Origin: Hyphomonadaceae bacterium
GTDB lineage: Bacteria > Pseudomonadota > Alphaproteobacteria > Caulobacterales > Maricaulaceae
DNA length: 61,369 bases
Assembly (NCBI GenBank): GCA_013001295.1
Contig: JABDMW010000059.1
Coordinates: 1-61,369, forward strand
Direction of reading: 5' to 3'
Below are positions 25,508 through 60,044 of this stretch, one piece after another. The notes under the pieces were generated by a model. That model made no database searches, was not told the DNA's origin, and saw only the letters and a program-made list of their open reading frames with translations. How positions within the stretch are numbered: the stretch's first letter is position 1; each line of letters starts with the position of its first letter. The position numbers and the translations under genes were made by a program.

Positions 25508-25537
25508 TGCGTACGTAAGTCGCTAAAAAAATACGCA
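25508..25537. promoter_or_regulatory. 30-bp tripartite dyad, copy 1 (before KstD-like operon)
   Basis: TGCGTA, then an 18-base spacer with GC exactly at its centre, then TACGCA. It starts about 150 bp before the flavoprotein ATG. Same arms, spacing and central GC as the copies at 32481-32510 and 60015-60044. An extra half-site TGCGTA lies at 25571-25576. Confidence 0.75.
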
Positions 25538-25656
25538 ATATAGCGAAGTGTTGCTCATTTTAGCGCAATATGCGTAATAAATGCGATAGTTATTGTGTTT
25601 TTCGTTGCGAAACGTTCTTGCCTGCGGTCTAATATAGAAAAACAAAGGCGAGGGTG

Positions 25657-27321
25657 ATGAACTCAATTGATGTCGATATTTTAGTGGTCGGATCCGGGGC
25701 GGGCGCATTGACCGCTGCCATCACAGCCCACGACGCGGGTGGGAATGTATTAGTCATCGAGAAGTCAGATATGTATGGCGGGACATCTGCCACGTCCGGC
25801 GGCGGAATTTGGATACCTTGTAATCATCTTATGGCTGAACATGGGGAAACAGACACGCCGGAGGCCGCCATTGAATATTTGAAAGCCTGTATCGGTGACG
25901 CCGTTTCAGAAGAACGCCTAAAAGCCTATGTCGAGAATGCGCCTAAAATGCTCAAGGACATGGAAGACAAGTCGGACATCAGGTTTGTGTCGACACCGTA
26001 CGCAGATTATCTGACCGAAAAGCCGGGAAGTAAGGATGGCTGGCGGACGCTTGACCCCGTTCCGATGTCGGCGACCAAACTCGGGAAAGAGTTTTTCAAT
26101 ATGCGGCCGCCACATCCGCAGACGATTTTCGGCGGATTTACAATTACCGTGAATGAAGCCAAGAAAATAATCACCCGCGCCAAGGGTTGGAAGTGGATCA
26201 TGGCAAAACTAATGATTTCGTATCGGTTAGATATCCCGATGCGGATGAAATCCAAACGCCATCGTCGTCTATGTTTGGGCAATGCTTTGGTTGGACGATG
26301 TCTAACGTCGGTATTTAAACGCAAAATTCCGATCTGGCGAAACGCGCCGCTCCAATCGCTTATCGAGTCGGATGGCACCGTGACCGGAGCAATTGTGAAA
26401 AAAGACAATGAAGTTGTTCACGTCACCGCTAAAAAAGGCGTCATACTCGCGGCGGGCGGGTTTGAACATAATGCCGAGATGCGCACAAAACATCTGCCAG
26501 GACCAACGGATACCAAATGGAGTGCAACCCCGGGACAAAATACCGGTGATGCCCATAAGGCGGCGCAAGAAGTCGGTGCGAATTTAACACTTATGGATGC
26601 GGCGTGGTGGGGCCCGTCTGTTCGATTGCCTCGCGATGACCGGTCGCGTGTTTTATTCGCTGAACGCGCATTGCCAGGAATCTATATCGTCAATGAAAAG
26701 GGCGAACGCTATCTCAACGAGGCCGCAAGCTATGATGAAGTCGGGCGCCAATTGCAGGCGCATCCGAAAACAAGTTGGGTGATTTTTGACCGTCGTGCCA
26801 GAGAGAAATATGGTATTGGGCCACTATATCCAACCGCTGTCCATCCAGACTCCAAATGGAACAGTTCCATCAAAGCGGTCGTAAAAAAATCCGACACAAT
26901 TGAAGGTTTGGCTCAACAAATGGGTGTTGATGCAAAAGGCTTGCAGGCCACGGTCGACAAAGTCGCCAAATACTCTGAGAGCGGCGTTGATGAAGATTTT
27001 GGGTCAGGTAGTACTGCGTATGACCGGTATTACGGCGATCCAACAATTACGCCAAATCCGTGCTTGGCACCGCTTGCCAAGGCGCCGTTCTATGCTTTTC
27101 CTGTTTATCCAGGGGACATCGGCACGAAAGGTGGTGTCGACGTTGACGTCAACGCGCAAGCCCTAAACGTTAGGGGTAAGCCAATTGGCGGATTATACGC
27201 TACCGGCAATACAGCCTCGTCCGTTATGGGACGAACTTATCCTGGCGCAGGTTCGACATTGGGACCTGCCATGACATTCGGCTATGTCGCCGCAAAACAC
27301 GCGATGGGCGTGAACTCATAA
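25657..27321 (+). CDS. KstD-like FAD-dependent dehydrogenase
   Basis: 554 residues of the fumarate reductase/3-ketosteroid delta1-dehydrogenase flavoprotein family. Seen: dinucleotide fold VVGSGAGALTAAITAHDAGG, EKSDMYGGTSATSGGGIWIP, FAD segment GVILAAGGFEHN, the YPGDIGTKGGVDVD block matching the KstD catalytic Tyr/Gly region, and LYATGNTASSVMGRTYPGAG with GPAMTFGYVAA, a KstD hallmark. KstD introduces a C1-C2 double bond in ring A of 3-ketosteroids; similar enzymes act on other cyclic ketones, so steroid specificity is inferred from context. ATG 25657 is preferred over GTG 25654. First gene of an operon with a small beta-rich protein and a sulfatase, downstream of a 30-bp dyad. Confidence 0.85.
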   Translation: MNSIDVDILVVGSGAGALTAAITAHDAGGNVLVIEKSDMYGGTSATSGGGIWIPCNHLMAEHGETDTPEAAIEYLKACIGDAVSEERLKAYVENAPKMLKDMEDKSDIRFVSTPYADYLTEKPGSKDGWRTLDPVPMSATKLGKEFFNMRPPHPQTIFGGFTITVNEAKKIITRAKGWKWIMAKLMISYRLDIPMRMKSKRHRRLCLGNALVGRCLTSVFKRKIPIWRNAPLQSLIESDGTVTGAIVKKDNEVVHVTAKKGVILAAGGFEHNAEMRTKHLPGPTDTKWSATPGQNTGDAHKAAQEVGANLTLMDAAWWGPSVRLPRDDRSRVLFAERALPGIYIVNEKGERYLNEAASYDEVGRQLQAHPKTSWVIFDRRAREKYGIGPLYPTAVHPDSKWNSSIKAVVKKSDTIEGLAQQMGVDAKGLQATVDKVAKYSESGVDEDFGSGSTAYDRYYGDPTITPNPCLAPLAKAPFYAFPVYPGDIGTKGGVDVDVNAQALNVRGKPIGGLYATGNTASSVMGRTYPGAGSTLGPAMTFGYVAAKHAMGVNS

Positions 27322-27335
27322 ACAAGGAGACTGAA

Positions 27336-27632
27336 ATGGGATTTAACGGAACCTGGAATATTACAATGAAAACGCCGATGGGCGACCGTGAAGCGGTGCT
27401 GACATTGGCGCAGGACGGTGACGAATTATCCGGCGAGGCCACCGCCGACGGAAATGCAACGCCGGTTAAGAATGGGAAGGTCGAGGACGGCCGGGCGAAA
27501 TTCAATGTGGATTTGACCACACCCATGCCGATCACGCTTGAATTTGACGTCGCTGAAGATGGCAGCAATCTCGACGGGTCGGTGAAGCTCGGTATGTTCG
27601 GGACTTCAGATGTAACCGGAACGCCAGCTTAG
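27336..27632 (+). CDS. Small beta-rich conserved protein
   Basis: 98 residues, no signal peptide, no cysteines. Seen: GTWNITMKTPMGDREAVLTL, then alternating short strands with Gly/Asp turns (LSGEATADGNATPVKNGKVE) and a PMPITLEFDVAEDG segment, giving a likely small beta-barrel or lipocalin-like sandwich. I do not recognise an assigned function. RBS AAGGAGACTGAA precedes the ATG. It sits 14 bases after the KstD-like gene and 18 before a sulfatase, so it is co-expressed with them; a carrier or accessory role for a hydrophobic substrate is speculation. Confidence 0.75.
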   Translation: MGFNGTWNITMKTPMGDREAVLTLAQDGDELSGEATADGNATPVKNGKVEDGRAKFNVDLTTPMPITLEFDVAEDGSNLDGSVKLGMFGTSDVTGTPA

Positions 27633-27650
27633 TTTTAAAGGTTAGCGATC

Positions 27651-29246
27651 ATGGTAAAAAAGATACTTGCCGTTCTGGTTATTTTGCTGCTGGCAGGGTT
27701 TTTATTTGCCAAGGTCAAATACAAGCGGGTCGCTTCGTCGGATTTTGATTTTCCGACGGAACAAACAGCCAATTTAGCCGAGTTGGTAAAACAGCGCGCG
27801 GTCGATGCGAAACCACCGAATGTTGTCATCCTGCTGGCCGATGATTTGGGGTGGGCAGATGTCGGTTACCATGGCTCTGATATTCAAACGCCAAACATTG
27901 ACCGTCTCGCGAAAGAGGGCATGCGGCTGGAACGCTTTTATGCGACGCCGTTCTGTACCCCGACGCGGGCGGCGCTGATGACGGGCCGTGATCCGATAAA
28001 ACTCGGAGCCGCGCATGCCGTCTTTATGGCTTGGGATAATGGGGGCATTTCACCGGAAGAACATTTCATGCCCGAGAGTTTCCGCGAAGCCGGTTATCAA
28101 ACCGCAATGGTCGGGAAATGGCATCTTGGCCATACCATAGAGCAGCACACGCCGAATGCCCGGGGGTTCGACCATTTCTATGGCCATTTTAATACGGATG
28201 TTCTTTATTTCGATCACACCTTTGCCGGCGGACATGATTTTCAGGAAAACGGAAACAGCGTAAAACATGAAGGTGAATACGCTACCGATGTTCATGGCAA
28301 TCAGGCGGCAAGATATATCAATGAGATGCGCGAGCCCGAGAAACCGTTTTTCCTTTATGTGCCTTTCCTGGCACCGCATTCTCCGATGGATGCCAAAGAG
28401 GAAGATATCGCGAAGTATCCCAACCGGTTGGACACGCCCCGGCATCCTGCCAAAACATATGCGGCGATGGTGCATAGTCTGGATGAAGCTGTCGGCGATA
28501 TTTTGAAAGCATTGGACGATCAAGGCGTTGCTGACAATACGATCGTTTTGTTCTTCTCTGATAATGGTGGCTATTATAATTTCGGCGGCGTTAACACGCC
28601 GCTCAATGGGGGAAAGCTCGAAGCGTATGAAGGCGGTATCCGGGTCACATCGGTTGTCCGTTGGCCGGACGTATTGCCAGCCAATACCGTCAATGAAAAC
28701 GTCATTTCTGTTTTGGACGTATTCCCGACTTTAGCGGAAGCCTCTGGCGTTGAACCGCTCAATGTGAAGAAAATGGATGGGTTTTCGAGATGGGACGCCG
28801 TGACGGGTACTGGTGAAAAAGACCGGGGTGAGCCTCTATATTTCACATCAAATGTGCCGATTTACAACAAATTCCAATACGGTGTTTTGGATGGTCCCTG
28901 GAAATTGGTGCAGCATGTCAATCATTTGCGCCGCACGACAGAAGTGAAAAGCGAATTGTACAATGTTTGGTCAGACCCCAATGAAAGTCAGGATATTTCG
29001 GCTGAGTTCCCTGAGGAATTTGAACGCCTGCAAAACCTTCTGGACAAGCGTCTCGCACTACATCCAATCGGCGGACAATATGTAAAAATTCAACCGCATC
29101 CCGGTTGGCGCGCGCCGAATGATTATGCCGAAGTCGTTATTCCTGCTGATCAGGTCAAGGAAGATATGTGGACAGGTTTCGGGCCGTTAGCGACAACGGT
29201 ACTTCAGCAAACTCACGGTGAGCGGGGCCGTATTAAATACGACTAA
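27651..29246 (+). CDS. Type I sulfatase (arylsulfatase family), membrane-anchored
   Basis: 531 residues. N-terminal hydrophobic helix (residues about 4-21) acts as signal anchor, so the enzyme is periplasmic. Catalytic signature FCTPTRAALMTGRDP: the Cys of C-T-P-T-R is normally converted to formylglycine. Also seen: metal-binding LLADDLGWADVGYHGSDIQT, VGKWHLGH, APHSPMDA and FSDNGGYYNFGG. Type I sulfatases hydrolyse sulfate esters. Strong similarity by eye to the second sulfatase at 35329 (same motifs in register), so they are paralogues. No maturase (FGE or anSME) gene is in the window. Third gene of the dyad-controlled operon. Confidence 0.92.
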   Translation: MVKKILAVLVILLLAGFLFAKVKYKRVASSDFDFPTEQTANLAELVKQRAVDAKPPNVVILLADDLGWADVGYHGSDIQTPNIDRLAKEGMRLERFYATPFCTPTRAALMTGRDPIKLGAAHAVFMAWDNGGISPEEHFMPESFREAGYQTAMVGKWHLGHTIEQHTPNARGFDHFYGHFNTDVLYFDHTFAGGHDFQENGNSVKHEGEYATDVHGNQAARYINEMREPEKPFFLYVPFLAPHSPMDAKEEDIAKYPNRLDTPRHPAKTYAAMVHSLDEAVGDILKALDDQGVADNTIVLFFSDNGGYYNFGGVNTPLNGGKLEAYEGGIRVTSVVRWPDVLPANTVNENVISVLDVFPTLAEASGVEPLNVKKMDGFSRWDAVTGTGEKDRGEPLYFTSNVPIYNKFQYGVLDGPWKLVQHVNHLRRTTEVKSELYNVWSDPNESQDISAEFPEEFERLQNLLDKRLALHPIGGQYVKIQPHPGWRAPNDYAEVVIPADQVKEDMWTGFGPLATTVLQQTHGERGRIKYD

Positions 29247-29262
29247 ACTCGGCTCGCCCGTC

Positions 29263-30669
29263 TTATTTTTTGACGCCCTTCATAATCAAACCTGCATAGC
29301 GGTCCGAGTAGGGCGGGAGTTGAATAAGAAAGTCGCGGAATTTGTCGAGCGGTTGATGGACAACTGAACGCTCATTGGACATAGACCTAAAGCCTTCATA
29401 GCCGCCAATCCGGCCCATGCCGGAGGCACCGATGCCACCGAAAGGAAGGCGTGGATTCGTGCCGGACTGGATGCAATTGTTATTCACAACGGCAGATCCC
29501 GAAGACGTATTGTTGAGGAAATACTCAATATTGCTGTCATTCGTAGAGTAAATATACAGGGCCAATGAATTGGTTCTCGGCGCGATATGCTTGAGAACGT
29601 CCTCGCGGTTTTGATATCCCACGACGCACAATATCGGCCCAAAAACTTCCTCTTGCATGATGTTCATATCTTCCGTGACATCAGTCAGGATTGTCGGCTC
29701 AACATAGCAGTCTTTCAAATTAACAGTCCCGCCACTAACGATGGTCGCGCCTTTTTTAACGGCATCATCCAAAAGCGCTTTGATCCTTTTGGTATGGCGT
29801 TCATTGATGATGCGCGGGACGTAATTGGATTTGTCCAGACCGGTCTGCTCGGAATTGTACTGTTCCTGAATTTTTTCGGATATCAGGTTTTGAAACTCGT
29901 CTTTGACGCTTTCATGTACAATGGCATAGTCGGGAGCAATGCAGACCTGGCCGGCGTTCATAACGCGGCCCCAAGCCAGTTTGGTTGCTGCATTTTCGAG
30001 CTTCGCGGTTTCGTCAATGATGACCGGATTTTTCCCACCCATTTCAAGTGTGATCGATGTAAGATTGTCAGCGGCGGCCTTCATGACAATCTTTCCAACC
30101 GCAGTACCACCGGTGTAATAAATGTGATCGAACGGTTGTTTCAGCAGCTCTTTCGCTACGTCGACGCCGCCTTGAAAAACCTCGGCTTCATCAGTGGGGA
30201 AAGCCTTATTGACGATTTCCTGGATAATCTGAGCGGATTCGGGTGCGAGTTCGGAAGGCTTGATCGCAACAGCGTTGCCAGCTGCCACTGCGGCTAACAT
30301 TGGGACGAAGCTCTCCGCTGTCGGTGCATTATAAGCCGCCATATTGAGAACAACGCCTTTGGATTGACGCCGGATTTCACATTTCTTTCCCATCGTCGCC
30401 AATGAGTTTTTGATCTTCTCTGGCTTCATCCACTTTGCGAGGTTTTTCTTGAAGAAATCGACTTCAGACTTGAGCATGACGAGTTCCGCGGCCATGTCTA
30501 AATCATGGGTGCCACGCTCATGGTGCGCGGCTTTTATCAGATCGTCTTTACGGTCGACGGTTGCTTCCCACAATGCCTGAATTCTCGCAGTTCGCTCAGC
30601 GGCCGTCGTATTGCGCAGACGGGATGTTGATGATTTTAATTTGGCGAATTTTTCGCTAATCTCGGACAT
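29263..30669 (-). CDS. Aldehyde dehydrogenase (coniferyl-aldehyde type)
   Basis: About 468 residues of the class 3-like ALDH group. Seen: LNMAAYNAPTAESFVPMLAA and AVAIKPSELAPES (cofactor binding), TGGTAVGKIVM, catalytic Glu in LEMGGKNPVII, catalytic Cys in NAGQVCIAPDY and PRLPFGGIGASGMGRIGG. Oxidises an aldehyde to the acid with NAD(P)+. Start at ATG 30669, four bases after the SDR stop, with AAAGG upstream; a longer frame to 30729 overlaps the SDR and is rejected. Could oxidise a side-chain aldehyde produced by the SDR/P450 steps. Convergent with the sulfatase gene. Confidence 0.92.
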   Translation of the reverse strand: MSEISEKFAKLKSSTSRLRNTTAAERTARIQALWEATVDRKDDLIKAAHHERGTHDLDMAAELVMLKSEVDFFKKNLAKWMKPEKIKNSLATMGKKCEIRRQSKGVVLNMAAYNAPTAESFVPMLAAVAAGNAVAIKPSELAPESAQIIQEIVNKAFPTDEAEVFQGGVDVAKELLKQPFDHIYYTGGTAVGKIVMKAAADNLTSITLEMGGKNPVIIDETAKLENAATKLAWGRVMNAGQVCIAPDYAIVHESVKDEFQNLISEKIQEQYNSEQTGLDKSNYVPRIINERHTKRIKALLDDAVKKGATIVSGGTVNLKDCYVEPTILTDVTEDMNIMQEEVFGPILCVVGYQNREDVLKHIAPRTNSLALYIYSTNDSNIEYFLNNTSSGSAVVNNNCIQSGTNPRLPFGGIGASGMGRIGGYEGFRSMSNERSVVHQPLDKFRDFLIQLPPYSDRYAGLIMKGVKK

Positions 30670-30673
30670 GTGT

Positions 30674-31549: not shown

Positions 31550-31578
31550 TTTATTCCCCGTATTGTTGATTGGTTGAC

Positions 31579-31599
31579 TTTCCGAACGACGTTCAGAAA
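31579..31599. promoter_or_regulatory. TetR-type operator, copy 1 (before SDR/ALDH)
   Basis: A 21-bp palindrome: TTTCCGAACG and CGTTCAGAAA around a central A. One half-site position differs (C/T against A/G). It matches the copies at 39538-39558 and 48871-48891, and the last of these overlaps the tetR start. It lies 30 bp before the SDR ATG. Confidence 0.8.
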
Positions 31600-31629
31600 A
31601 CTATGGATTACGCTCAGAGTCAAGCGTCG

Positions 31630-32391
31630 TTAAAAAGCGTCAGGGCGCAGTTGGGCATCTGTTCCGCCATCAACATAAATAATGCTGCCCTGCATATATT
31701 CAGCTGCATCTGACAGCATGAATTCAATAACGCCGGCGATTTCGTCTGGTGTCGCGACGCGGGTTTTCGGAATAGGGATAGCTTTGACACTTAGTCCGAT
31801 TTGCGGGTGATCGGCCGCACCTCTGAACATCGGTGTTTCCGTCATGCCAGGCGCAATCGCATTCAAGGTGATGCCAAGTTGGCCCCACTCGGCGGCGCGG
31901 CGGCGGACAGCTCGGGCGACTGCATGTTTAGAAAGGCCGTAAGTCAGCGCGCCATGAGCGTCACCAATATATTGCATGGTCTGCTCTTCTGATTTGTCGA
32001 GCATGGAGACGACAATGTCAGCTTCAGGGTCTGTGCGCATTTGAGCTGAATTGGAAGATATGACGACGACGCGCCCATCGGTTTTTGCTAGCGCATCTTT
32101 AAATCCGTCTAAAAGTGAGACGCACCCGTAATAATTGACCCGCGCAACCAGTTGGCCATTTTCAATATGGCCGCCAAGCCCAGCTGCAAGTACAAGGCGA
32201 TCGATTTTCCCGTCAGACATTTCGAGCGCTTGTGCGATTGCATCGGATCTGCCGTCTTTGGTCGACAGGTCCGCAGAAATTTCTGCTCCTTCAAGATCGA
32301 TACCAATAACTTTAAAATCTTGTGCCTCGAGCTTTTCTCGGACGCAGGCCCCGATTCCAGATGCTGCCCCGCTTATAACTGCTGTTCTCAT
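31630..32391 (-). CDS. 3-alpha-hydroxysteroid dehydrogenase-like SDR
   Basis: About 253 residues, length and sequence close to Comamonas 3-alpha-HSD/carbonyl reductase (HsdA, 257 aa). Seen: ISGAASGIGACVREKLEAQD, GIDLEGAEISADLSTKDGR (in HsdA the same ADLST..GR block), VVISSNSAQ with catalytic Ser, YGLSKHAVARAVRRRAAEWG with Tyr-x3-Lys, LNAIAPGMTETPMF, and the end VDGGTDAQLRPDAF, which mirrors the HsdA C-terminus. It likely oxidises/reduces the C3 hydroxyl of a steroid, and is one of the best steroid indicators in the island. Start at ATG 32391 or the in-frame ATG 32403. Transcribed divergently from the TonB receptor, with a 30-bp dyad between. Confidence 0.88.
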   Translation of the reverse strand: MRTAVISGAASGIGACVREKLEAQDFKVIGIDLEGAEISADLSTKDGRSDAIAQALEMSDGKIDRLVLAAGLGGHIENGQLVARVNYYGCVSLLDGFKDALAKTDGRVVVISSNSAQMRTDPEADIVVSMLDKSEEQTMQYIGDAHGALTYGLSKHAVARAVRRRAAEWGQLGITLNAIAPGMTETPMFRGAADHPQIGLSVKAIPIPKTRVATPDEIAGVIEFMLSDAAEYMQGSIIYVDGGTDAQLRPDAF

Positions 32392-32480
32392 TGTTACTCT
32401 CATTTTGGTTTGAACGGCTAATCTGCCTAAAGCAGAACAGATAAATCAATTGAACGTAATTGCAATAAGTGAGTCTAAAA

Positions 32481-32510
32481 TGCGTAACAAAAATGCAACA
32501 ATGCTACGCA
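32481..32510. promoter_or_regulatory. 30-bp tripartite dyad, copy 2 (between SDR and TonB receptor)
   Basis: TGCGTA and TACGCA separated by 18 bases with GC at the exact centre (ACAAAAAT-GC-AACAATGC). About 90 bp from the SDR start and 152 bp from the receptor ATG, so it can serve both directions. The rest of 32404-32661 is AT-rich with no other feature recognised. Confidence 0.75.
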
Positions 32511-32661
32511 AATCGACAAAATTTGGGTTAAAATAGGGCAAAACGCGCATTATTTTGGATATTTGCTGCGACTTCTTCATTGCGCGGGTTTTGAATATCG
32601 CTTAATCTTTCGCGCAAGAAACGAACAAAATACTGTCGATTTACAAAAGGGGAGACACACT

Positions 32662-35256
32662 ATGTCATCAGCGACTTTCAAGGGATTATCAGGATTAGCG
32701 CTTTCGGCGTCATTAATCGCGCTCAGCGCGCCAGCCATGGCGCAACTCGATGAGATCGTCGTCACGGCTCAGAAAAAAGAGCAAAGTCTGCAAGATGTTC
32801 CTGTTGCCATTGCGGCATTCGACTTACAGGCACTCGAAACTAACCGTATTGACGGCATCGAAGATATTGGCACATTTACACCGGGTGTCTATGTAACGCC
32901 GAACCCGGCTGATCCGAATGGTGTTCGTGTTAATATCCGCGGTATCGGCACATTTGACCCGCAAATCGGGCAGGACAGCCGTGTCGCTATCTATCAAGAT
33001 GGTGTTTATCTCGGGAAAACCCAGGGATTGGCTTTCGATATGCCAGATCTTGCACGGGTCGAGATTTTGAAAGGGCCGCAAGGAACGTTGTATGGGCGAA
33101 ATACCGTCGCTGGCGCAGTCAATCTCGTGTCAGCTTCTCCTGATCCGAGCGAGTATTCCGGAAAGTTCACGGCCGAATACGGCAACTTTAATCATAAAAA
33201 AATTGCTGGCGCGATCAATATTCCAATGGCTGAAACAGCTGCGTTCAGATTATCCGGTTCTTTGATGGACCGTGATGGCTGGGTCGAAAATGACGGTCCT
33301 GGAACGGACTTTGGCGGCGAAAACAAATTTGGCGTCCGCGCGGCATTTGGATTTGATGTCGGATCCGATTGGAACGTCGAATTGGCGGCTGACTACAATA
33401 AGACAAAGAAAGAACCGCTGTTCTATCAATCTGTAACGGATTTTGGTGCAGGATTGTTTGCACCTGCGATCAGTACATTTGATGGTCGCCAGGACATGGT
33501 GACAACCAGTTTCACGAATGAAGAGGGTAATCTGGAAACGAAGGGCGCGTCTATCACAGCAAATTGGGATGTCGCCGAAAACCATGATGTGAAATTTACC
33601 GCTGCTTACCGCGAAGCGGATAGTGCTCGATTTGTTACCCTCGTTCCAACCGCTAATCCTGCAATTATCAATGCGGTGACTGGTGGATTTAACCAAGCCA
33701 TAGGTGCACTCCCATTTGCATTTGGTGTGGCGGGTCAAGGCCTTCGCCCCGATTTCGGGTCTCAATTTGACGGGTCTATCCCAGAACGTGGACTTTTCTT
33801 GTCGCCACCAGGAGGATCCAAAAACCTAGAAGGGCATAACCAGATCAGCTTGGAAGCGACATATAACGGTGAATTTGCTGATGGACGTGTCGAGTATACA
33901 GGCGGTTTGTTCTATTATGACGAAGAAACCGGTACAGCAGGCGGACCAAACCTCGCAAATGCCAATGATTACTTGTTTGTTCTCGGACAGTTTGATCCAC
34001 GTGTAACAGCGCCAAATATCACCGGTTTTCTGGGTGGGCTCGGCGTACCTCCTGCAGCTCAAGGTCCAATCCCCGCAGCTGGCGTCTTGCTGTCATTCTT
34101 GCAAGGACCACTTGCACCGCAAGCCTTCCCGCTTATCAGCCAAATCGTTGGTGATGGGACGACATGTCAGCAGACGCTGATGGCTCCTATGCCGGCCAAC
34201 AATTTCTGTATCCCGACATTGTCAGTTGCATTGGGATCCGCACGTCAAACGACAACGAATTCGTTGTTCATCGACACTAAAGCATTCGCGATCTACGGCC
34301 AGGCGACATTCCATGTGTCGGACAATCTCCGGGTTACCGGCGGGCTGCGTTACTCAGATGAAAGCAAGGACGGTGTTGGCCAGACACGCTCCGTGTTTTT
34401 CAATGATAACATGGACCTTCTCGGTAATATCATTCCGCCAAATATCGCATCTTTCGAAGACGATCTTCTTGATCCTTCTGTAACGATCGAATTTGATGCG
34501 TCTGAGGATATTCTCCTGTACGCGAGCTACAAGGAAAGCTTCCGGTCTGGAGGGTTTAACTCAACCGCCGCTGGCTTGCGGATACCGGGTGAAACGTTTG
34601 GCCCTGACTTTACGTATCAGCGTGAGGATATAACGGCTTATGAGGCTGGGTTCAAAGGTGATTTTGGCAATCAATTCCGGCTGAATGTTGCGGGCTTTTA
34701 CTATGACTTCTCTAACAAGCAGACGACATTCGCTCTAAACCCGCTCATCGCGACTGAGCGTGCCATCGTCAATACAGACGATGAATTGTACGGTTTTGAG
34801 GCTGATGCGCAGTTCGCACTGACCGATGAACTGACACTACGTGGTAGCTATTCATATATTGACGGTACGGCAGGTGACACAGTCAATCCGTTAAATCCGG
34901 CAGACGTCAGAAGCTTTCCGGAACTACAGGGTACACCAAAGAATTCATTCCTTGTATCCATGGACTATAGAGCCGATAGTGGCTTCTTCGGAAACGTCTC
35001 GTACAGCTACAAAGACGAAGTTTTGGCGATCCCTGAAAGTGACTTGCGCTTCCCGTCAATCAGTCTCGTAAATGGTCGGATCGGGTATGACTTCCCGCTT
35101 GCAAATGGCAAATCGGCGACAATCGCACTTTGGGGACAAAACCTGTTTGACGAAGAATATCTCATCGACAGCCTCCCATTCGAAACATTTGCTTACCGCA
35201 CAGAAGTCTACGGCTTGCCTCGGACTTACGGCGCTTCAATTGGCGTTAAATTCTAG
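32662..35256 (+). CDS. TonB-dependent outer-membrane receptor
   Basis: About 864 residues. Signal peptide (SSATFKGLSGLALSASLIAL, cut after PAMAQ), TonB-box-like LDEIVVTAQKKEQSLQDVPV, a plug domain with GIGTFDPQIGQDSRVAIYQD and LKGPQGTLYGRNTVAGAVNL, and a 22-strand-type barrel ending in YGASIGVKF. This iron-complex-receptor-like subclass (VTAQKREQSLQDVPVAI type) is expanded in sphingomonads and marine alphaproteobacteria, where members take up large hydrophobic or sulfated molecules as well as siderophores. The start is ATG 32662 with AAAAGGGGAG upstream; the longer open frame is untranslated leader. Likely the import route of the island's substrate. Confidence 0.93.
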   Translation: MSSATFKGLSGLALSASLIALSAPAMAQLDEIVVTAQKKEQSLQDVPVAIAAFDLQALETNRIDGIEDIGTFTPGVYVTPNPADPNGVRVNIRGIGTFDPQIGQDSRVAIYQDGVYLGKTQGLAFDMPDLARVEILKGPQGTLYGRNTVAGAVNLVSASPDPSEYSGKFTAEYGNFNHKKIAGAINIPMAETAAFRLSGSLMDRDGWVENDGPGTDFGGENKFGVRAAFGFDVGSDWNVELAADYNKTKKEPLFYQSVTDFGAGLFAPAISTFDGRQDMVTTSFTNEEGNLETKGASITANWDVAENHDVKFTAAYREADSARFVTLVPTANPAIINAVTGGFNQAIGALPFAFGVAGQGLRPDFGSQFDGSIPERGLFLSPPGGSKNLEGHNQISLEATYNGEFADGRVEYTGGLFYYDEETGTAGGPNLANANDYLFVLGQFDPRVTAPNITGFLGGLGVPPAAQGPIPAAGVLLSFLQGPLAPQAFPLISQIVGDGTTCQQTLMAPMPANNFCIPTLSVALGSARQTTTNSLFIDTKAFAIYGQATFHVSDNLRVTGGLRYSDESKDGVGQTRSVFFNDNMDLLGNIIPPNIASFEDDLLDPSVTIEFDASEDILLYASYKESFRSGGFNSTAAGLRIPGETFGPDFTYQREDITAYEAGFKGDFGNQFRLNVAGFYYDFSNKQTTFALNPLIATERAIVNTDDELYGFEADAQFALTDELTLRGSYSYIDGTAGDTVNPLNPADVRSFPELQGTPKNSFLVSMDYRADSGFFGNVSYSYKDEVLAIPESDLRFPSISLVNGRIGYDFPLANGKSATIALWGQNLFDEEYLIDSLPFETFAYRTEVYGLPRTYGASIGVKF

Positions 35257-35283
35257 AATCTCTGAGGGGGGATAGGGGCGTAG

Positions 35284-35308: not shown

Positions 35309-35328
35309 GTTTAAAAACGGAGCAAATT

Positions 35329-48870: not shown

Positions 48871-48891
48871 TATCCGAACATCGTTCGGAAA
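48871..48891. promoter_or_regulatory. TetR-type operator, copy 3 (at tetR start)
   Basis: A 21-bp palindrome with perfect core CCGAAC-ATC-GTTCGG. It begins 44 bp from the enoyl-CoA hydratase start, and its last base is the A of a possible tetR start codon. This placement implies autoregulation. Confidence 0.85.
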
Positions 48892-49601
48892 TGTCAAATA
48901 TGAAATCTAATCTCGCGAATACAGACGATAAACAAAGAAGTTACGGGCGTCCACGCCTGTTAACCCACGACGAAATTCTCGATTCAGCCGTAGCGCTTGG
49001 GCTCGAGGGCCTCTCCATGAAAAGATTAGCGACCTCGCTCAATGTTGGCACAGCCACATTGTATCAATATTTTGATAGCCGAAAGACTCTCATGCGCGCG
49101 GCTGCCGTTCACGCATTGTCCGACGTCGAATTGCCAAAAGACATCGATCAGCACTGGACGACCTATGCTTCAGAATTTGCCGGAAGTTTAATCGATATTT
49201 TGGCGGAAAACCCGAGTTATATTCACTCCAACCAACATTCGGATTATGGCTTTGAAGTACAGTTTAAGCTGGTGGAACAATTCTTGAGTGTCATGAATAA
49301 GCGCGGATTTGCACCCGAAGACGGGATGCGTGTTTTTAACATTGTCGGTACAGCCGCTTTTGCCGGGGCCACAGAAACAGTCAGGCAGCGGGAATTTGAA
49401 GTCGATGGAGAGAAAATGGCGGACGTCGCGCAGCGTCAGTTTAATCGTCTGAGCTCAGGAGAATTCCCGATGATGAGCCAGGCCATTTCAGCATTTACCG
49501 CGACGCCCCAAGACAAAATAAAAGCGCTTCTTACGGCAGCGTTTGCCACGATCGCCCGGGAACGGGGCGATAATCCTGATGATATCAAATTAAAGCTCTA
49601 G
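48891..49601 (+). CDS. TetR-family transcriptional regulator
   Basis: 233-236 residues. N-terminal helix-turn-helix: GRPRLLTHDEILDSAVALGL, MKRLATSLNVGTATLYQYFD, SRKTLMRAAAVHAL (about residues 20-75); the C-terminal domain should bind an acyl-CoA or steroid-like effector. Two in-frame ATGs (48891 and 48900); the operator ends on the first, so 48900 or leaderless translation is likely. Probably represses its own operon (P450, Rieske, SDR, propeller, VOC) and the units at 31549, 39482, 39595 and 48827, all of which carry the same palindrome. Confidence 0.92.
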   Translation: MSNMKSNLANTDDKQRSYGRPRLLTHDEILDSAVALGLEGLSMKRLATSLNVGTATLYQYFDSRKTLMRAAAVHALSDVELPKDIDQHWTTYASEFAGSLIDILAENPSYIHSNQHSDYGFEVQFKLVEQFLSVMNKRGFAPEDGMRVFNIVGTAAFAGATETVRQREFEVDGEKMADVAQRQFNRLSSGEFPMMSQAISAFTATPQDKIKALLTAAFATIARERGDNPDDIKLKL

Positions 49602-49611
49602 GGAAAAAGAC

Positions 49612-51009: not shown

Positions 51010-51018
51010 GAGGCCACA

Positions 51019-54907: not shown

Positions 54908-55226
54908 AGCGACGTTCGCTTCGGGGGCAAAGCGGACCTCCCGCGAGTGTCCTAATTGGAGCGATTTTAGGACGCTCACTAATGTGCGTTTTCGTTTCAC
55001 AACTTCGCATCACTGTCTTCTTCGCTCAAGCCATGCCGTATAATGCGGGATTTTTTCAAAGCCGAATGTGGTGTGCGGGTTTTAAGTTTCGTGTCTTTGA
55101 GATTCCGCTAGCCAGATATTTTGTTTATTGGTTCTAAAGTATTTCACAAGTTCTGACGCTAGACGTGTAAGACAACGGCTTTCACAGCTAACAATTAAGC
55201 TAAGGAATAGGTACAATTATTATTTT
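54908..55226. other. 319-bp intergenic stretch with repeat copies
   Basis: Between the convergent VOC gene and the TPR gene. Bases 54909-54994 hold two inverted copies of a short repeat (described separately). From 55000 to 55226 the sequence is AT-rich; I see no coding potential, RNA gene or clear terminator there. Confidence 0.5.
54909..54994. repeat. Short interspersed repeat, copies A (inverted) and B
   Basis: Copy A is on the minus strand (54909-54955; complement reads TTAGGACACTCG...GGTCCGCTT...CCCCGAAGCG). Copy B is on the plus strand (54961-54994; GCGATTTTAGGACGCTCACT then AATGTGCGTTTTCG). Head-to-head they can form a hairpin. They match the copies at 57433-57532 on the other side of the TPR gene. 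Confidence 0.7.
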
Positions 55227-57332
55227 TTATTGATCCGCGTAATCAGGGATTTTGCTTACCAAAAAATTCGTCCATTTGCCGTCGGTTAGGTACCAGGCCC
55301 GGATTTTCGGATGATTGACAATGTCTTTGTGAAACCACCAATAGATAGCGATAAAATCAAGTCCAGCCCATTCTGAATTATTTGCTTTTTCCGCAAGGAT
55401 CAGTTCAACCGAACGTTCGAGGTCAAACCCTGACAAGGCCACAAACCCCTGAACCCCGGTGGCGTTATAGTTGGGACTGCGCTCTCTTATTATTTTCTCG
55501 GTGAGGGTTTTCGCCGCATCAAAATCACCCAACGCAAAATGAGCCTTTGTAAGAAAATCGTCTATGTTCATTCCGACATAATTTTCTTTTTCGATCAAAC
55601 CCTGTACGGCCAACAACCGCTTCGCGATTTTTTCGACTTTTGACTGATCACCGGTCTCCAAATAATGGGTCAACAATATATTTTGGAGAAGCACGAAATT
55701 CCAAATATTTGTTCGACCTATGACCGTGTCCAGTGTCAATGTATCTTCAAATGCAAGAGATTGGGCAATATCGATGCCCCAAATACTGATCAAAGAATCA
55801 TGTAGAAAGACATTATCAATAAGGTCGTCCAAATGATCGGCGTTTTGTTGTTTGAACGTTTCATAAGCGGCCAGGTCACCGGTGAACCGCAGCCTGGTTA
55901 CAGCACTGGCATAATCATCATAAATGCTCTTTCCGGATATGTTTTCGAACCGCTTTGAGAGCAATTCAGACATTTCGGGGTTATTTTCAAAATAATACAA
56001 GGACCCCAACAAAATCCTTGCGTGCAAGGGGTCAAGTTCGTTTGCCTTGCGAAAAAAAGGTTCCGCCCCGGCACTATCCCCGTTCAGGACATGCCACCAC
56101 GCCATTACATACCAACCCATCGCGTCTTCCGGATATTGCGCCAGAATACGATCAATCGTTTTTTTGCGCCCGTACTGGAAGCCTGGCTCGTTCGATTCTG
56201 CGACGCTATCACTGGCCAGGGCTAAGAGTGTTTCCAGATTTTCCGGGTCCAGTGAGACGGCCTTGTCGAGGGCCCGTTTACCGGTCGCCGTCAATTCACC
56301 GAGTAGTTTTTGTTGCTGTGGTCCTTTAAAGTAGTCGTTGTCTATGATGTTACGAATTGTGTGGTCACAAATTTCGTTCAACAACCCCCAGGCCTCCGTA
56401 AAGTCCGGATCGACCTTTACGGCTTGTTCCAGAAGCTTCCGGGTGCGTGTCAAACTGTCTTCGCTCTCGCGCTCTGTCCGGTCGATGCTGCGGGCTTTCT
56501 GATAAAGATCATACGCACGGACGCTGCGGGTCGGCATGTTGTACAGAGTGCCAACGGTATCAGGCTGGATTTCCAGATGGACAGCGTTGCTGATCTCGCG
56601 CGCTATCGCGCTCTGTACAGCAAATACGTCCAACAATTCGCGGTCATAATTGCTGGCCCATATATGTCTGTCAGTGGCGGTCTCGATAAGTTGGACGGTA
56701 ACCCGGACATGATTGTTGATGCGACGAACCGACCCTTCAAGCACATAAATGACATCAAGCTGTTCGCCGATCTCAGTTACCGAAAGGCTTGAGCCGACAT
56801 ATTTTTCAGATGATGTGCGCGATGTAACTTCGAGACCGTCAATATATGACAAATTGGTCAATAATTCTTCGTGAACGCCACCCGCGAAAAAGGCATTCTC
56901 GCTAATCGCGCTCATGTTCACCAAAGGGAGTACGGCTATCGAGGAGCCTTCAGACCGGAGGGGGGCCGATCGCGTATCCGCGCTAAAAAATGAAGTGTAG
57001 ACGACGCCGCCTGCAATCAAAATCAGTCCACCAATGATGATGAAGTTAATTTTGTGTCCGCTCCCGTCCGACGTGGAAGCGTCAGGCGTCGCATCTTGCG
57101 ATCTTTTAATCCCGTCCGGCGTCAATTCAAACGCCCACGCGAAGACCAAGGCCAACGGAAAGCCGATCAGCAAGGTCGCGACGATCATCCCGTCAAACCA
57201 ATCCGGCAATCCAATCGAAGTTTCGAGGATGGACGCGAATTGCATCAACAGCCATCCAACCACCGCATAGACACCGGCCACACGGAAGATATTTCGCCGT
57301 TTCAATTCCGAAAAAATATTACTCACAAACAC
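55227..57332 (-). CDS. Membrane TPR protein with TolB/FlgO-like N-domain
   Basis: 701 residues. N-terminal conserved block FVSNIFSELKRRNIFRVAGV, three membrane helices (about 18-35, 48-68 and 95-113), then a domain SIAVLPLVNMSAISENAFFA, YVLEGSVRRINNHVRVTVQL and RHIWASNYDRELLDVFAVQS that is shared with bacterial adenylate-cyclase-like/CadC-like TPR proteins, followed by TPR-type helical repeats to the C-terminus. There is no cyclase catalytic domain and no DNA-binding domain. Possibly signalling or envelope-complex assembly. It carries neither island operator and is flanked by short interspersed repeats, so it may be a separate insertion. Confidence 0.82.
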   Translation of the reverse strand: MFVSNIFSELKRRNIFRVAGVYAVVGWLLMQFASILETSIGLPDWFDGMIVATLLIGFPLALVFAWAFELTPDGIKRSQDATPDASTSDGSGHKINFIIIGGLILIAGGVVYTSFFSADTRSAPLRSEGSSIAVLPLVNMSAISENAFFAGGVHEELLTNLSYIDGLEVTSRTSSEKYVGSSLSVTEIGEQLDVIYVLEGSVRRINNHVRVTVQLIETATDRHIWASNYDRELLDVFAVQSAIAREISNAVHLEIQPDTVGTLYNMPTRSVRAYDLYQKARSIDRTERESEDSLTRTRKLLEQAVKVDPDFTEAWGLLNEICDHTIRNIIDNDYFKGPQQQKLLGELTATGKRALDKAVSLDPENLETLLALASDSVAESNEPGFQYGRKKTIDRILAQYPEDAMGWYVMAWWHVLNGDSAGAEPFFRKANELDPLHARILLGSLYYFENNPEMSELLSKRFENISGKSIYDDYASAVTRLRFTGDLAAYETFKQQNADHLDDLIDNVFLHDSLISIWGIDIAQSLAFEDTLTLDTVIGRTNIWNFVLLQNILLTHYLETGDQSKVEKIAKRLLAVQGLIEKENYVGMNIDDFLTKAHFALGDFDAAKTLTEKIIRERSPNYNATGVQGFVALSGFDLERSVELILAEKANNSEWAGLDFIAIYWWFHKDIVNHPKIRAWYLTDGKWTNFLVSKIPDYADQ

Positions 57333-57432
57333 CCCTCATTACGATGACCCAAGTTAGAGGTATTTAGATAAATTGCTATATGTTTATCGGGCGGTTCTAT
57401 TTTCAATTCTCAATCATTTGAGCAACTTTCTT

Positions 57433-57532
57433 GGGGCGTTTTAGGACTCTCGGCGAGTGGCCGTAATCTCAAACATTACCAACGGCCGGTTTTGGGCGTT
57501 TTAGGACACTCGGCTAATGTCCGCTTCGGGGA
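57433..57532. repeat. Short interspersed repeat, copies C and D (direct)
   Basis: Two direct copies exactly 60 bp apart, each with core GCGTTTTAGGAC(T/A)CTCGGC then (G/T)A(G/A)TG(G/T)CCG. Copy C is 57433-57469; copy D is 57492-57532 and is the fullest (core continues AATGTCCGCTTCGGGG). The 230-bp gap 57333-57562 contains nothing else I can support. Confidence 0.7.
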
Positions 57533-57562
57533 TTTAACCGACACAAAAAAATTAACCCGCAA

Positions 57563-58639
57563 TTACTCCGCGGCGTCCATCTCCCAGGGGTCGCGTTTCG
57601 TGCCTTTGGTCACCCAATGCCCGTTTGATTTGGCTTGATATTTTTTGGCATCTTTGCGCGGATTGTAGAACTGTTTGTACCAGGCCCGGGCTTTGCCGAA
57701 CGGGCCGTCACCGACCACTTGCATAATGCTCAGGCACGGTGCCTTGTTGGCCCAGACATCGAAATCTTGCAAGAGTGCGAGTTTTGAACCTTCCTGGAAT
57801 GCAGGAACGGCTTCCTCGTCTTCGGGCGTCATCGGATGGTTGGGCGGCTCAACCGTTAATCCGTGCCAGGCTCGAAGTTGCCCGTCTTCGATAGGTGTGT
57901 GGCAAATCATCATCAATGAATTATAATACCCATTCATGCGCGAAAGCAGAATGCCGGGCCCGGTATACCAGGTGTCATTGGTCATGACGTCATCAGATAG
58001 CGTGCGATGCCCTGCGGCCAGTAACTGACGAATGACATGATCTTTACACTCGCTTTCGAAATATTCCATATTGGTTGAGCCGTGGATCGGGCCGAGATGG
58101 GCCTTATCGGTCATATTGTCGATAATTTCCTGTGGGTGGCAATCAAGCACGCCCAAATGATCGACCTTCCAATTGACCCATTTCGGGTCGTCCCACTCGG
58201 GGAGAGGATGTGGCTGAAAATCGGGTTCGCCATCCTCTTCGTCGTGCCACATCAGGATCAGACCGCCCCATTCTTGGACCGGATAACTCTTGATCTTTGC
58301 GGCTTTGGGAATGGGCGCCGGTGAATATGGTATTTCGTTACACATACCATCCGGACCAAATTTCCAGGCGTGATAAGGGCAACGGATATCGTCGCCTTCG
58401 ACCTGTTTGCCGTCCATAACGATATAAGAGCTGTCATTTTTGGCGAGATGGGTTTTCATGTGCGGGCAATAGGCATCCATGACCACGACCCGTCCGGATT
58501 CGCCCCGGTACATGACCAAATCCCGTCCAAAATACCGTAGTGGAATTGGCTTTTTCGTCGCGTCCGGGCTCTCGCCCACCATAAACCATCCCCGTGGAAA
58601 GGTGAATTCGCCGATACCGTATTCTGCTGTCGTCGCCAT
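57563..58639 (-). CDS. Rieske non-heme iron oxygenase, KshA-like (second)
   Basis: 358 residues. Rieske ligands in YCPHMKTHLAKND and RCPYHAWKFGPDG (C-x-H...C-x2-H, separated by an 18-residue loop longer than in the first copy). Mononuclear iron motif DNMTDKAHLGPIHG (D-x2-H-x4-H), in the KshA-like NxxDxAHxxxIH form. Hydroxylates an unactivated ring carbon, with KshA-type 9-alpha-hydroxylation as one candidate. Clearly divergent from the oxygenase at 51019, so probably a different position or substrate. 52 bp downstream of the OYE gene on the same strand. Confidence 0.92.
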   Translation of the reverse strand: MATTAEYGIGEFTFPRGWFMVGESPDATKKPIPLRYFGRDLVMYRGESGRVVVMDAYCPHMKTHLAKNDSSYIVMDGKQVEGDDIRCPYHAWKFGPDGMCNEIPYSPAPIPKAAKIKSYPVQEWGGLILMWHDEEDGEPDFQPHPLPEWDDPKWVNWKVDHLGVLDCHPQEIIDNMTDKAHLGPIHGSTNMEYFESECKDHVIRQLLAAGHRTLSDDVMTNDTWYTGPGILLSRMNGYYNSLMMICHTPIEDGQLRAWHGLTVEPPNHPMTPEDEEAVPAFQEGSKLALLQDFDVWANKAPCLSIMQVVGDGPFGKARAWYKQFYNPRKDAKKYQAKSNGHWVTKGTKRDPWEMDAAE

Positions 58640-58691
58640 AATGTCCTCCGTCTAAATACCTATATCATTTGTACGCATATCTCAATATTCG

Positions 58692-59933
58692 TCAGGCAGT
58701 TGATGCAGGTTGAGTGTTAAGCTCCGGTGCATGCCCTTTGTGGCCGCCGTCTTCAACGCAAGCTGTGCCGCCGGGCGTATACATCAGTGTGACACATTGA
58801 TTGCACGCCGTGCAGCCAGAGTTGCGGATGTTTCCGGACTGCAATGCATTGATCAGGCCGGGATCAAAAATCAGAGCGCGGCCCAGTCCCATGGCATCAA
58901 AGCCTTCGTCCATAATTGTATTGGCATTGTCCATATTCTGGAGCCCGCCAAGATAACAGAGCGGCATATCGACAGCGGCGCGGATTTGCTTTGCCGGTGG
59001 CATGGAATACAGCGGCGTGAACTCCCGATCCGGCTCTTTGCTTTTTGGTTGCATCATCATGCCCAACCTGACGATCAGGTTTTTTGGCTTCACGGATGAG
59101 GCGGGCAGGGGATTACCAAACATTGTCGAGATAGATTCAACATTAAGCCCGTTCGATAGCTGAGCCATATGTGCGCCGGTTTTTTGCAATACCTTGGCGA
59201 TTTCTATGCCTTCTGTAACCGTGTTTCCGCCTTCTTTGCCATCGGTTTGGCTATATTTGACCGTAACCGCCAAATCATTTCCAACCGCGTCCAGCACCTT
59301 AGACAGGACTTCAGCGGGAAATTTCATGCGGTTGTGGATATTGCCGCCATACTCATCAGTGCGGGTGTTGTAAAACGGCGTGATAAACTGCGCGAGAAGA
59401 TAACCGTGGCCCATGTGGATTTCGACCGCATCAAAGCCGGATTCCTTCGCATGCAGGGCTGCTTTGACAAATTCATCGGCGATGGCATCCATATCATCGC
59501 GGTCCATTTTCTTTTTCATATAGCGCCCGGTCATGACCCCGAATTTGTTGAAACCGCCATTGGCTGAAATCGGTTTCATGGATGAGAAGTCCTTGGGCAG
59601 GAACGTAAATGCGCCAGCATGGGTGATTTGAGCCTGCGCCGCAGCACCGTGTTTGTGCACGGCGTCTGTCAACACTTTGAAGTCTGCGACCGTATCATTG
59701 GACAGGTGTGCTTGATCCACAAAGGTTTGTCCGTCTTTTGAGGTCGCACAATAGGCGACGGTCGACATGGCTGCGCCGCCTTCAGCAACCCTTTCATGGA
59801 ACTGTACCAATCCTTTGGAGATAATCCCGCCTTTGCACATGCCTTCATTGGTAGCTGCTTTGATAAACCGGTTGCGCAGTTTCAGCGGGCCGATGGTCAG
59901 GGGGGTAAAGGCTTTTGACTTTGATTTGCTCAT
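58692..59933 (-). CDS. Old-yellow-enzyme family NADH:flavin oxidoreductase
   Basis: 413 residues of a TIM-barrel FMN enzyme. Seen: TPLTIGPLKLRNRFIKAATN, AQITHAGAF, VEIHMGHGYLLAQFITPFYN with NTRTDEYGGNIHNRMKFP, and MGLGRALIFDPGL. A C-terminal cysteine cluster GCTACNQCV plus a Cys 10 residues later resembles the [4Fe-4S] site of 2,4-dienoyl-CoA reductase-type relatives, but the second FAD/NAD domain of those enzymes is absent. Reduces an activated C=C bond (enone or dienoyl type), which in steroid pathways could act on ring A or C4 double bonds. Divergent from the MFS gene with a 30-bp dyad between. Confidence 0.9.
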   Translation of the reverse strand: MSKSKSKAFTPLTIGPLKLRNRFIKAATNEGMCKGGIISKGLVQFHERVAEGGAAMSTVAYCATSKDGQTFVDQAHLSNDTVADFKVLTDAVHKHGAAAQAQITHAGAFTFLPKDFSSMKPISANGGFNKFGVMTGRYMKKKMDRDDMDAIADEFVKAALHAKESGFDAVEIHMGHGYLLAQFITPFYNTRTDEYGGNIHNRMKFPAEVLSKVLDAVGNDLAVTVKYSQTDGKEGGNTVTEGIEIAKVLQKTGAHMAQLSNGLNVESISTMFGNPLPASSVKPKNLIVRLGMMMQPKSKEPDREFTPLYSMPPAKQIRAAVDMPLCYLGGLQNMDNANTIMDEGFDAMGLGRALIFDPGLINALQSGNIRNSGCTACNQCVTLMYTPGGTACVEDGGHKGHAPELNTQPASTA

Positions 59934-60014
59934 ACGGTTTTATAAAACCGACTGCGAAATAAATCACGTCAAAAATGATGATTATGCGTGATTTCTCAGT
60001 ATAAATGCTATAAA

Positions 60015-60044
60015 TGCGTAGCAAATAAGCAAAAAAACTACGCA
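60015..60044. promoter_or_regulatory. 30-bp tripartite dyad, copy 3 (between OYE and MFS)
   Basis: TGCGTA and TACGCA separated by 18 bases with GC at the exact centre (GCAAATAA-GC-AAAAAAAC). Here the arms extend by one more pair (ATGCGTAG / CTACGCAT). It ends 18 bp before the MFS ATG, a repressor-like position, and is 81 bp from the OYE start. Confidence 0.78.

Follow-up and report, generated by a model that had tools for sequence, protein, structure and literature searches.

A phased operator of about 94 bp and its probable tandem Lrp/AsnC regulators at steroid catabolic genes of a Hyphomonadaceae bacterium

The 61,369-nucleotide contig JABDMW010000059.1 of a Hyphomonadaceae bacterium (assembly GCA_013001295.1), analysed here over its whole length and called the window below, contains three exact copies of the inverted hexamer pair TGCGTA-N18-TACGCA, all of them intergenic. 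The first lies upstream of a gene for a flavoprotein resembling 3-ketosteroid Δ1-dehydrogenase (KstD), whose unit probably includes a sulfatase. The second separates a short-chain dehydrogenase/reductase (SDR) gene from that of a TonB-dependent receptor, and the third lies between genes for a KshA-like Rieske oxygenase and an old yellow enzyme (OYE)-like flavoenzyme on one side and a major facilitator superfamily (MFS) transporter on the other (Table 1). A first-pass annotation made from the letters alone had listed the same sites and neighbours, and had taken the sites for a 30-bp 'tripartite' element governing uptake and first-attack functions. Comparison with related genomes makes it likely, in our view, that the sites are operators of a steroid or bile-acid catabolic regulon under two tandem Lrp/AsnC proteins, here named LrpA and LrpB.

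When all hexamers were scanned at spacings of 0–40 bases, this was the only inverted pair with at least three copies in the window, and no such group arose in 40 Markov shuffles. Looser matches were at chance level, so only the exact sites stand out: with up to three mismatches the window held 19 matches against 22.4 expected, and across the 59 contigs (3.49 Mb) of the assembly two-mismatch matches showed no enrichment (84, with 133 for the reversed control). The assembly has five exact sites against one reversed-control match, the two outside the window being on contigs C21 and C48, and seven one-mismatch sites, of which contig C7 (13.7 kb) carries four and C48 (21 kb) two. For the locus counts given below, a control that spelled each hexamer backwards in place was used first, and the counts were repeated with a truly reversed pattern. 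Chance repeats, or a repeat element with no regulatory role, would agree with the background level of the loose matches in window and genome. They are contradicted by the uniqueness of the three-copy pair and the empty shuffles, and also by the co-occurrence, promoter placement and dyad-free pattern described below, and we regard such an origin as extremely improbable. The sites almost certainly belong to one regulon.

To describe the element, we used 100 sites from genomes of the family, our own included. This set holds 80 of the 86 exact family sites; those left out were G024:C2:403287 (inside an open reading frame, ORF), the single sites of genomes G006 and G107, and three of the five in G101, which lay outside the stretch examined. 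Two sites deep inside ORFs were dropped, and thinning the remaining 98 by interior identity, which removed the window site at 60015, left 45 non-redundant sites. The GC dinucleotide on the symmetry axis, which the first-pass annotation had described as conserved, is present in 4 of the 45 (about 0 bits) where 0.8 would be expected from interior composition; it is mildly favoured at most, and the axis reads AT in the C21 site and AC in the C48 site. The tripartite form is thus not supported. The conserved context is instead WW-TGCGTA-R-WWWWW-n4-WWWWW-Y-TACGCA-WW. The 30-mer is a real element, yet an incomplete one, being just part of a longer operator.

That operator has the form TGCGTA-N18-TACGCA-N33-TGCGTA(-N17/18-TACGCA), spans about 93–94 bp and consists of two dyad modules at a distance of 63 bp, or six turns. 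An exact third hexamer, TGCGTA, lies 50–52 bp from the dyad centre at 29 of the 45 sites, and at least five of its six bases match at 37. At an offset of 51 bp, 30 matches of at least five bases were seen in 88 flanks, the mean for any one offset and orientation being 0.47. At 74–75 bp a fourth hexamer, often weak, is also raised (10 and 7 matches). The pattern TACGCA-N33-TGCGTA, which leaves out the N18 dyad, was found in 17 of the 18 family genomes that carry the Lrp pair (65 matches, many of them operators already found), compared with one match in 1 of 18 pair-negative genomes. In the remaining pair-bearing genome, G028, the third hexamer stands at 50 bp instead.

A profile built from 27 operators of other genomes, with orthologues of our own operators kept in, exceeded the shuffled maximum (6.8 in 30 shuffles) at no place in the window other than the three sites. 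The same profile finds a further operator at C48:2087–2184 that has four hexamers, with one half spaced N17. Full four-hexamer operators, with two near-complete dyads 62–63 bp apart, occur at some promoters; the paired entries listed for these in Table 1 are two halves of one operator, counted from both sides.

We then aligned 34 non-redundant operators, picked for a third hexamer with at least five matching bases; this choice builds hexamer conservation into the alignment, but not A/T phasing. Between the hexamers, A/T maxima lie near 0, 10.5, 21, 31, 42, 52, 62.5, 73 and 83. A 10.4-bp sine fits the 86 non-hexamer columns of the ∼94 bp with an R2 of 0.74, where 2000 column permutations reach at most 0.216 and five far-flank stretches at most 0.09. 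The hexamers start at 0, 24, 63 and 87 (spacings of 24, 39 and 24 bp) and dyads fall at about 15, 47 and 78, a distance of 31.5 bp (three turns). Outside each of the three hexamers there is in addition a weak mate of different sequence, and C is preferred at −7 in every case. The 63-bp repeat and the 10.4-bp A/T phasing over ∼94 bp point to DNA wrapped around a protein; from the DNA side, wrapping on an Lrp oligomer is well supported and likely.

The first-pass annotation saw no matching regulator in the window, and this agrees with our findings: the candidate Lrp pair lies about 12.3 kb past the right end. The last 127 bp of the window are identical to the start of contig C7, which places the start of lrpA at virtual window position 73653 (61369 − 127 + 12411). 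A one-mismatch site at C7:12326 lies upstream of the tandem lrpA–lrpB genes. In Hellea balneolensis DSM 19091 (G024), the genes of the window, C7 and C48 stand largely in one continuous order. C7:13008–13700 is 93% identical to C48:1–693 over 693 bp, including the end of lrpB, and a C7–C48 join is likely, not exact; the 93% stretch represents strain variation or a duplicated segment.

Both proteins have an AsnC-type helix-turn-helix (HTH) domain (PF13404, 45.4 and 53.7 bits, cut-off 27) and a RAM domain (AsnC_trans_reg, PF01037, 46.7 and 36.7 bits, cut-off 25), and both HTH regions are conserved in the four family sequences compared. The nearest solved relatives are PH0140, PH1519, LrpA, AsnC and Lrp. 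None of the named equivalogs Lrp, AsnC, LysM, ChrS and LrpA was matched, the best score being 64.1 bits where the NCBIfam cut-offs are 180–250. The fold search was confined to LrpA, whose model aligns to stand-alone RAM modules over 68–69 columns at 1.3–1.4 Å, the LrpB model being too poor. The pair shares family domains and fold with Escherichia coli Lrp and AsnC, but scores 31–53 bits against NCBIfam cut-offs of 227–233, so the proteins are not called orthologues; the E. coli Lrp consensus, YAGHAWATTWTDCTR, is unlike TGCGTA. The siroheme decarboxylases AhbA/AhbB and NirDL also have the Lrp/AsnC fold and occur as paired paralogues. Structural matches to these (4czd, 4ch7) are weak, however, and our pair has clear HTH_AsnC domains, the fold matches of LrpA being stronger to DNA-binding regulators.

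Among 137 genomes of the family, 18 carry the pair and 22 have exact sites, all 18 pair-bearing genomes included (hypergeometric P 5e-19, shared ancestry ignored). The pair-bearing genomes hold 81 exact sites (three reversed-control matches), compared with five in the other 119. Exact sites in the absence of the pair were seen in four genomes: G006 and G107 have one each, and G088 and G089 are incomplete metagenome-assembled genomes (MAGs; 77% and 82%) that both have KshA. A strong KshA_C match (E <1e-20) was seen in 19 genomes: G088, G089 and 17 of the 18 with the pair, the other being G068 (76% complete). Weak PF19298 matches in G006, G018, G092, G097 and G144 were not counted as KshA. In G014, a single contig, a stretch of 48 kb takes in the pair and all seven exact sites, and nine of its ten exact or one-mismatch sites lie in a 35-kb core. 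No regulator gene besides the pair was recognised among ORFs of at least 90 aa in this core, as judged by similarity to our own genes and, for six ORFs, by Pfam. Most of these ORFs resemble our own enzymes, transporters and receptors; six of those with no clear own match are an SDR, a SnoaL-like protein, and acyl-CoA and isocitrate/isopropylmalate dehydrogenases. The link between pair and operator is strong, and the regulon is very probably controlled by the Lrp pair.

The one regulator that we identified within the window is a TetR-family protein, and it could be argued that this protein, or another classical dimeric repressor, binds the 30-mer while the Lrp pair is a mere passenger. KstR, a TetR regulator, is reportedly a repressor of steroid catabolic genes with a palindromic operator. 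TetR proteins govern steroid genes elsewhere too: EdcR of Caenibius tardaugens resembles the present system, as proposed here, in being a steroid-gene repressor with a palindromic operator and autoregulation, and differs in its family and its proposed operator, TnnCnnTACnAnTnGTAnnGnnA, the excerpted account describing no wrapping array (PMC8700777). The window TetR occurs in 15 of the 137 family genomes, 14 of them pair-bearing. It is absent, however, from G014 (one contig, seven exact sites), G028 (two exact sites), G068 and G085, and was rejected as the cognate regulator on this ground, as 4 of the 18 pair-bearing genomes lack it and all four have sites. The phased operator is also too long for one TetR dimer. 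At ∼94 bp the operator is not the single dimer-sized palindrome expected for a TetR or LacI dimer (the window TetR was assessed, LacI proteins were not searched for). We consider control by such a dimeric repressor very unlikely.

The placement of the sites bears on how the pair might act. Read in context, 85 of the 100 sites fall between genes; of the rest, 13 are within a called ORF close to its called start and two lie deeper in ORFs. Where both neighbours of an intergenic site were called (79 sites), the genes were divergent in 56 cases, tandem in 23 and convergent in none. The median distance to the start codon was 48 bp, and in 51 of the 79 the dyad was within 60 bp; these counts include orthologues, and the starts come from a simple ORF caller. 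The exact sites are neither random in frequency nor mainly coding, and they are conserved at orthologous promoters. They are grouped in a single catabolic region, mainly at divergent promoters, and relatives retain them together with KshA, which strongly supports the dedicated uptake and first-attack steroid regulon first proposed. A site also precedes lrpA, exact in G082, G085 and G087 and with one mismatch in our own genome.

Because the sites are so close to start codons, we moderately favour a repressor over an activator. Alternatively, the pair could activate, with bending or wrapping aiding RNA polymerase, or could regulate divergent genes in both senses. The archaeal protein BarR represses its own gene and activates the divergent one from a single, apparently wrapped intergenic region (PMC10201364; PMC2995911), and the prevalence of divergent genes here, together with the position of the operator 1 dyad 117 bp upstream of the called start, would suit such a mode. 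At the majority of sites, in contrast, the dyad is near enough to the start codon that it would probably cover a core promoter, and activation or dual regulation appears unlikely, though by no means negligible.

The substrate can be judged from the genes involved. NCBIfam models for the KstD-like, Rieske, OYE and other window enzymes were all below their cut-offs, so the enzyme names are family-level; the lipid-transfer thiolase, at 467 bits, approaches its cut-off of 469. Homologues of KstD and KshA are under the operator, as expected for 9,10-seco steroid degradation, and the gene of an HsaC-type extradiol dioxygenase (record annotation) has an exact site upstream of it in Sphingobium sp. 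TomTYG65. That site separates hsaC_2 from an acyl-CoA dehydrogenase gene; genes for a CoA-transferase, a hydratase and an aldolase are in the neighbourhood, and the pair is 7.4 kb distant. On the strength of the KstD-like, KshA-like and OYE proteins, the thiolase and this hsaC neighbourhood, a steroid-type substrate is quite probable.

Table 1. Features of the window and of other contigs and loci (window coordinates unless a contig or locus is named; C7, C21 and C48 are contigs of the same assembly)
Feature	Position	Strand	Remarks
Operator 1, primary dyad	25508..25537		upstream of KstD-like gene
Operator 1, third hexamer	25571..25576	+	exact TGCGTA; N33 from dyad, 63 bp from left arm
Operator 1, extended	25505..25602	+	three exact hexamers, ~93-98 bp; profile score 43.4
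KstD-like flavoprotein (putative target)	25654..27321	+	PDB 7p18, 3-oxosteroid 1-dehydrogenase, E 1.6e-157
Sulfatase	27651..29246	+	Pfam Sulfatase; probably in unit of KstD-like gene
SDR (putative target)	31630..32403	-	Pfam adh_short_C2
Operator 2, primary dyad	32481..32510		between SDR and TonB-dependent receptor
Operator 2, extended	32478..32575	+	third hexamer degenerate (CGCGCA, 4/6); profile score 51.7
TonB-dependent receptor (putative target)	32662..35256	+	Pfam Plug and beta-barrel; scanned from ATG 32662, longest ORF 32563-35256
TetR-family regulator	48891..49601	+	rejected as cognate
KshA-like Rieske oxygenase (putative target)	57563..58639	-	Pfam KshA_C; PDB 2zyl, E 7.8e-42
OYE-like flavoenzyme (putative target)	58692..59933	-	Pfam Oxidored_FMN
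Operator 3, extended	59950..60047	-	third hexamer not clear; profile score 41.4
Operator 3, primary dyad	60015..60044		between OYE/KshA-like unit (57563-59933, -) and MFS transporter
MFS transporter (putative target)	60063..61355	+	Pfam MFS_1
Exact overlap, window end with C7 start	61243..61369	+	127 bp
lrpA	C7:12411-12875		Lrp/AsnC HTH and RAM domains
lrpB	C7:12879-13385		Lrp/AsnC HTH and RAM domains
Exact site	C21:572		precedes second TonB receptor
Exact site	C48:10181		between flavin reductase and SnoaL-like gene
Paired-dyad promoters	C7:10999/11061; G028:C145:11203/11265; L221:2518/2581; L250:2428/2491		

Beyond the family, we took the 80 best GTDB loci for LrpB and sought a second homologue at E 1e-5. 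The 33 closest (L070–L102) are all tandem A-then-B pairs; at that threshold no adjacent second homologue was found in the other 47. Sites with at most one mismatch were near 10 of the 11 loci from Hellea and other Caulobacterales-labelled MAGs (L070–L080), with no control match, some of these loci being contigs of the family genomes already counted. They were also near 12 of 18 pairs from Sphingopyxis, Acidocella, Rhizorhabdus and others (L081–L098), with 42 sites in 311 kb and no control match. The 47 single-AsnC loci gave no such site in 785 kb and one reversed-control match. Tandem pairs with no TGCGTA sites, and likewise no control match, are seen in SAR86 and a gammaproteobacterial MAG (L099–L102), and pairs of this type may use a different operator.

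The Sphingopyxis pairs with one-mismatch sites are about 40% identical to our own. A one-mismatch site in Sphingopyxis sp. LC81 (L090) separates the pair from a divergent KstD-like gene (50% identity, minus strand), and homologues of the KshA-, OYE- and SDR-like genes of the window are present at the locus. At another Sphingopyxis locus three sites (L092:3985, 4072 and 4180), with equivalents in other Sphingopyxis loci, are 87 and 108 bp apart in place of the 63 bp of the family, and this array is near an acyl-CoA dehydrogenase homologue. On plasmid pNL2 (NC_009427.1) of Novosphingobium aromaticivorans DSM 12444, the pair SARO_RS19400/RS19395 is preceded by a two-mismatch site whose third hexamer is exact. 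Several of pNL2 and other Novosphingobium and Sphingobium plasmids have two to four LrpA-like places, which suggests more than one such pair per replicon. In a class-wide sample the pair occurs in 4 of 385 genomes, our own included. Of the others, G309 carries both an exact site and a paired site with the 63-bp spacing 4–7 kb from lrpA, and G483 a one-mismatch site on the contig that carries its pair. One exact site each was found in 2 of 12 pair-negative genomes (G163, G167) and likewise in G309, and none in G404 or G483.

These features allow a mechanism to be outlined. An octamer of LrpA and LrpB, perhaps four A–B dimers about three turns apart, would wrap the operator with the A/T minor grooves facing in. 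A would read TGCGTA and B the weaker mate near the C seven bases outside each hexamer; we infer that this mate, with its C at −7, belongs to the second subunit of an A–B dimer. The wrapped octamer would occlude promoters, repressing both the regulon and lrpAB, until a pathway ligand altered the octamer and repression ended. A mixed A–B assembly is slightly favoured. LrpA alone or LrpB alone might instead form the binding homo-octamer, the second gene then encoding a modulator: most studied Lrp/AsnC proteins are homo-oligomers, and a single hexamer type dominates the operator. The strict A-then-B order in 33 of the 33 closest loci and the conservation of both HTH regions suggest, however, that both proteins bind DNA, and the dissimilar outer mate at each hexamer speaks against one kind of subunit, leaving the homo-octamer a real possibility at somewhat less than even chance. 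More tentatively still than the mixed assembly, we suggest that a hetero-octamer of tandem Lrp/AsnC paralogues might form a bacterial nucleosome-like particle on a dedicated, rotationally phased ∼94-bp operator, each A–B dimer covering three helical turns. Such a switch, responsive to steroids, could represent a class not described before; it would occur in Maricaulales, Sphingomonadales and some other lineages and would have travelled with catabolic islands and plasmids.

Several observations weigh against the proposed regulation by the Lrp pair or limit it. The search itself imposes conservation on both arms of the primary dyad, and an exact third hexamer is missing at two of the three window sites. 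A promoter scan, meant as a guide to repression or activation, gave a recognisable promoter on 2 of 67 gene-facing sides. AlphaFold produced poor monomer models (pLDDT 67 for LrpA and 53 for LrpB). In G014 the gene of a Crp-like regulator is found some 7 kb beyond the core, ahead of the tenth site and still between sites. Six of the 18 pairs in L081–L098 and all four in L099–L102 lack a site at up to one mismatch. Within Sphingopyxis the sites are for the most part mutual orthologues, some of them in GC-rich, possibly coding DNA, and Novosphingobium sp. ES2-1 has the pair and no site within two mismatches. At three plasmid loci two-mismatch sites numbered 3, 0 and 2 against reversed controls of 3, 1 and 2, so that only position and the exact site count there. 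Whole-genome one-mismatch counts in G309, G404 and G483 were likewise at background (4, 4 and 3 against controls of 6, 9 and 11); outside the family the signal is therefore position, not number.

In archaeal Lrp proteins the binding sites are a whole number of helical turns apart, two or three between centres (PMC2995911), and the three-turn spacing and continuous phasing seen here fit a chain of Lrp dimers wrapping DNA as in those members. Ss-LrpB wraps about 100 bp on three dimers and octamer wrapping occurs in archaeal members (PMC10201364, PMC2995911); a mixed Lrp assembly, FL11 with DM1, is described in vitro (PMC2995911). BarR and Ss-LrpB resemble the present system in their HTH and RAM domains, whole-turn spacing and divergent promoters, and also in the wrapped DNA and autoregulation proposed here (PMC10201364, PMC2995911). 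The BarR sites, however, are 15-bp semi-palindromes, whereas here hexamers at fixed spacings are repeated over a regulon, and in each archaeal case one protein serves amino-acid metabolism where here there are two tandem paralogues in bacterial steroid catabolism. Natural Lrp-family sites are quite degenerate and hard to predict (PMC2995911); the third hexamer, in contrast, was unused in site finding and is exact at most of the 45 sites.

A tandem Lrp/AsnC pair inside a steroid catabolic cluster has one parallel, known to us by description and not by sequence: the bile-salt cluster of Sphingobium sp. Chol11 has two contiguous Lrp/AsnC genes, NCHOL11_RS15865 and RS15860 (PMC12882949). As excerpted, that account suggests amino-acid metabolism and proposes no operator, regulon or mechanism, and it is the sole printed trace that we found among the matches listed. 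The sphingomonad steroid regulators in the literature excerpts are of TetR and AraC types, with this one mention of an Lrp pair (PMC12882949, PMC8700777). No title or abstract opening among the matches listed named the operator or an Lrp-controlled steroid regulon, which is weak evidence of absence, as most subscription journals lie outside the coverage. A Pseudomonas aeruginosa Lrp paper was rejected as a precedent, TGCGTA/TACGCA being present only in its primers. For steroid and bile-acid breakdown in Alphaproteobacteria, the present system supplies specific candidates for the regulator, the operator and the target genes. As its hexamers can be recognised, its helical spacing is fixed and its wrapping signature is visible, the operator makes a wrapped-octamer model directly testable, and two named strains with the pair, H. 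balneolensis DSM 19091 and N. aromaticivorans DSM 12444, offer routes to experiment.

Two further observations concern the window operators. The left edge of the steroid genes is marked by a tRNA-Leu gene (25338–25422) immediately ahead of operator 1. The first 20 kb of the Hellea region yielded no tRNA. The Lrp pair is present in only 1 of 14 genomes of our own genus, and the steroid cluster may therefore be an acquired island. Operator 2 has a near-identical orthologous site in H. balneolensis (region position 20534) and other family genomes. The interior of this TonB-receptor operator, ACAAAAATGCAAC, is kept across several genera, far above other operators, and a second factor or a promoter element may overlap it.

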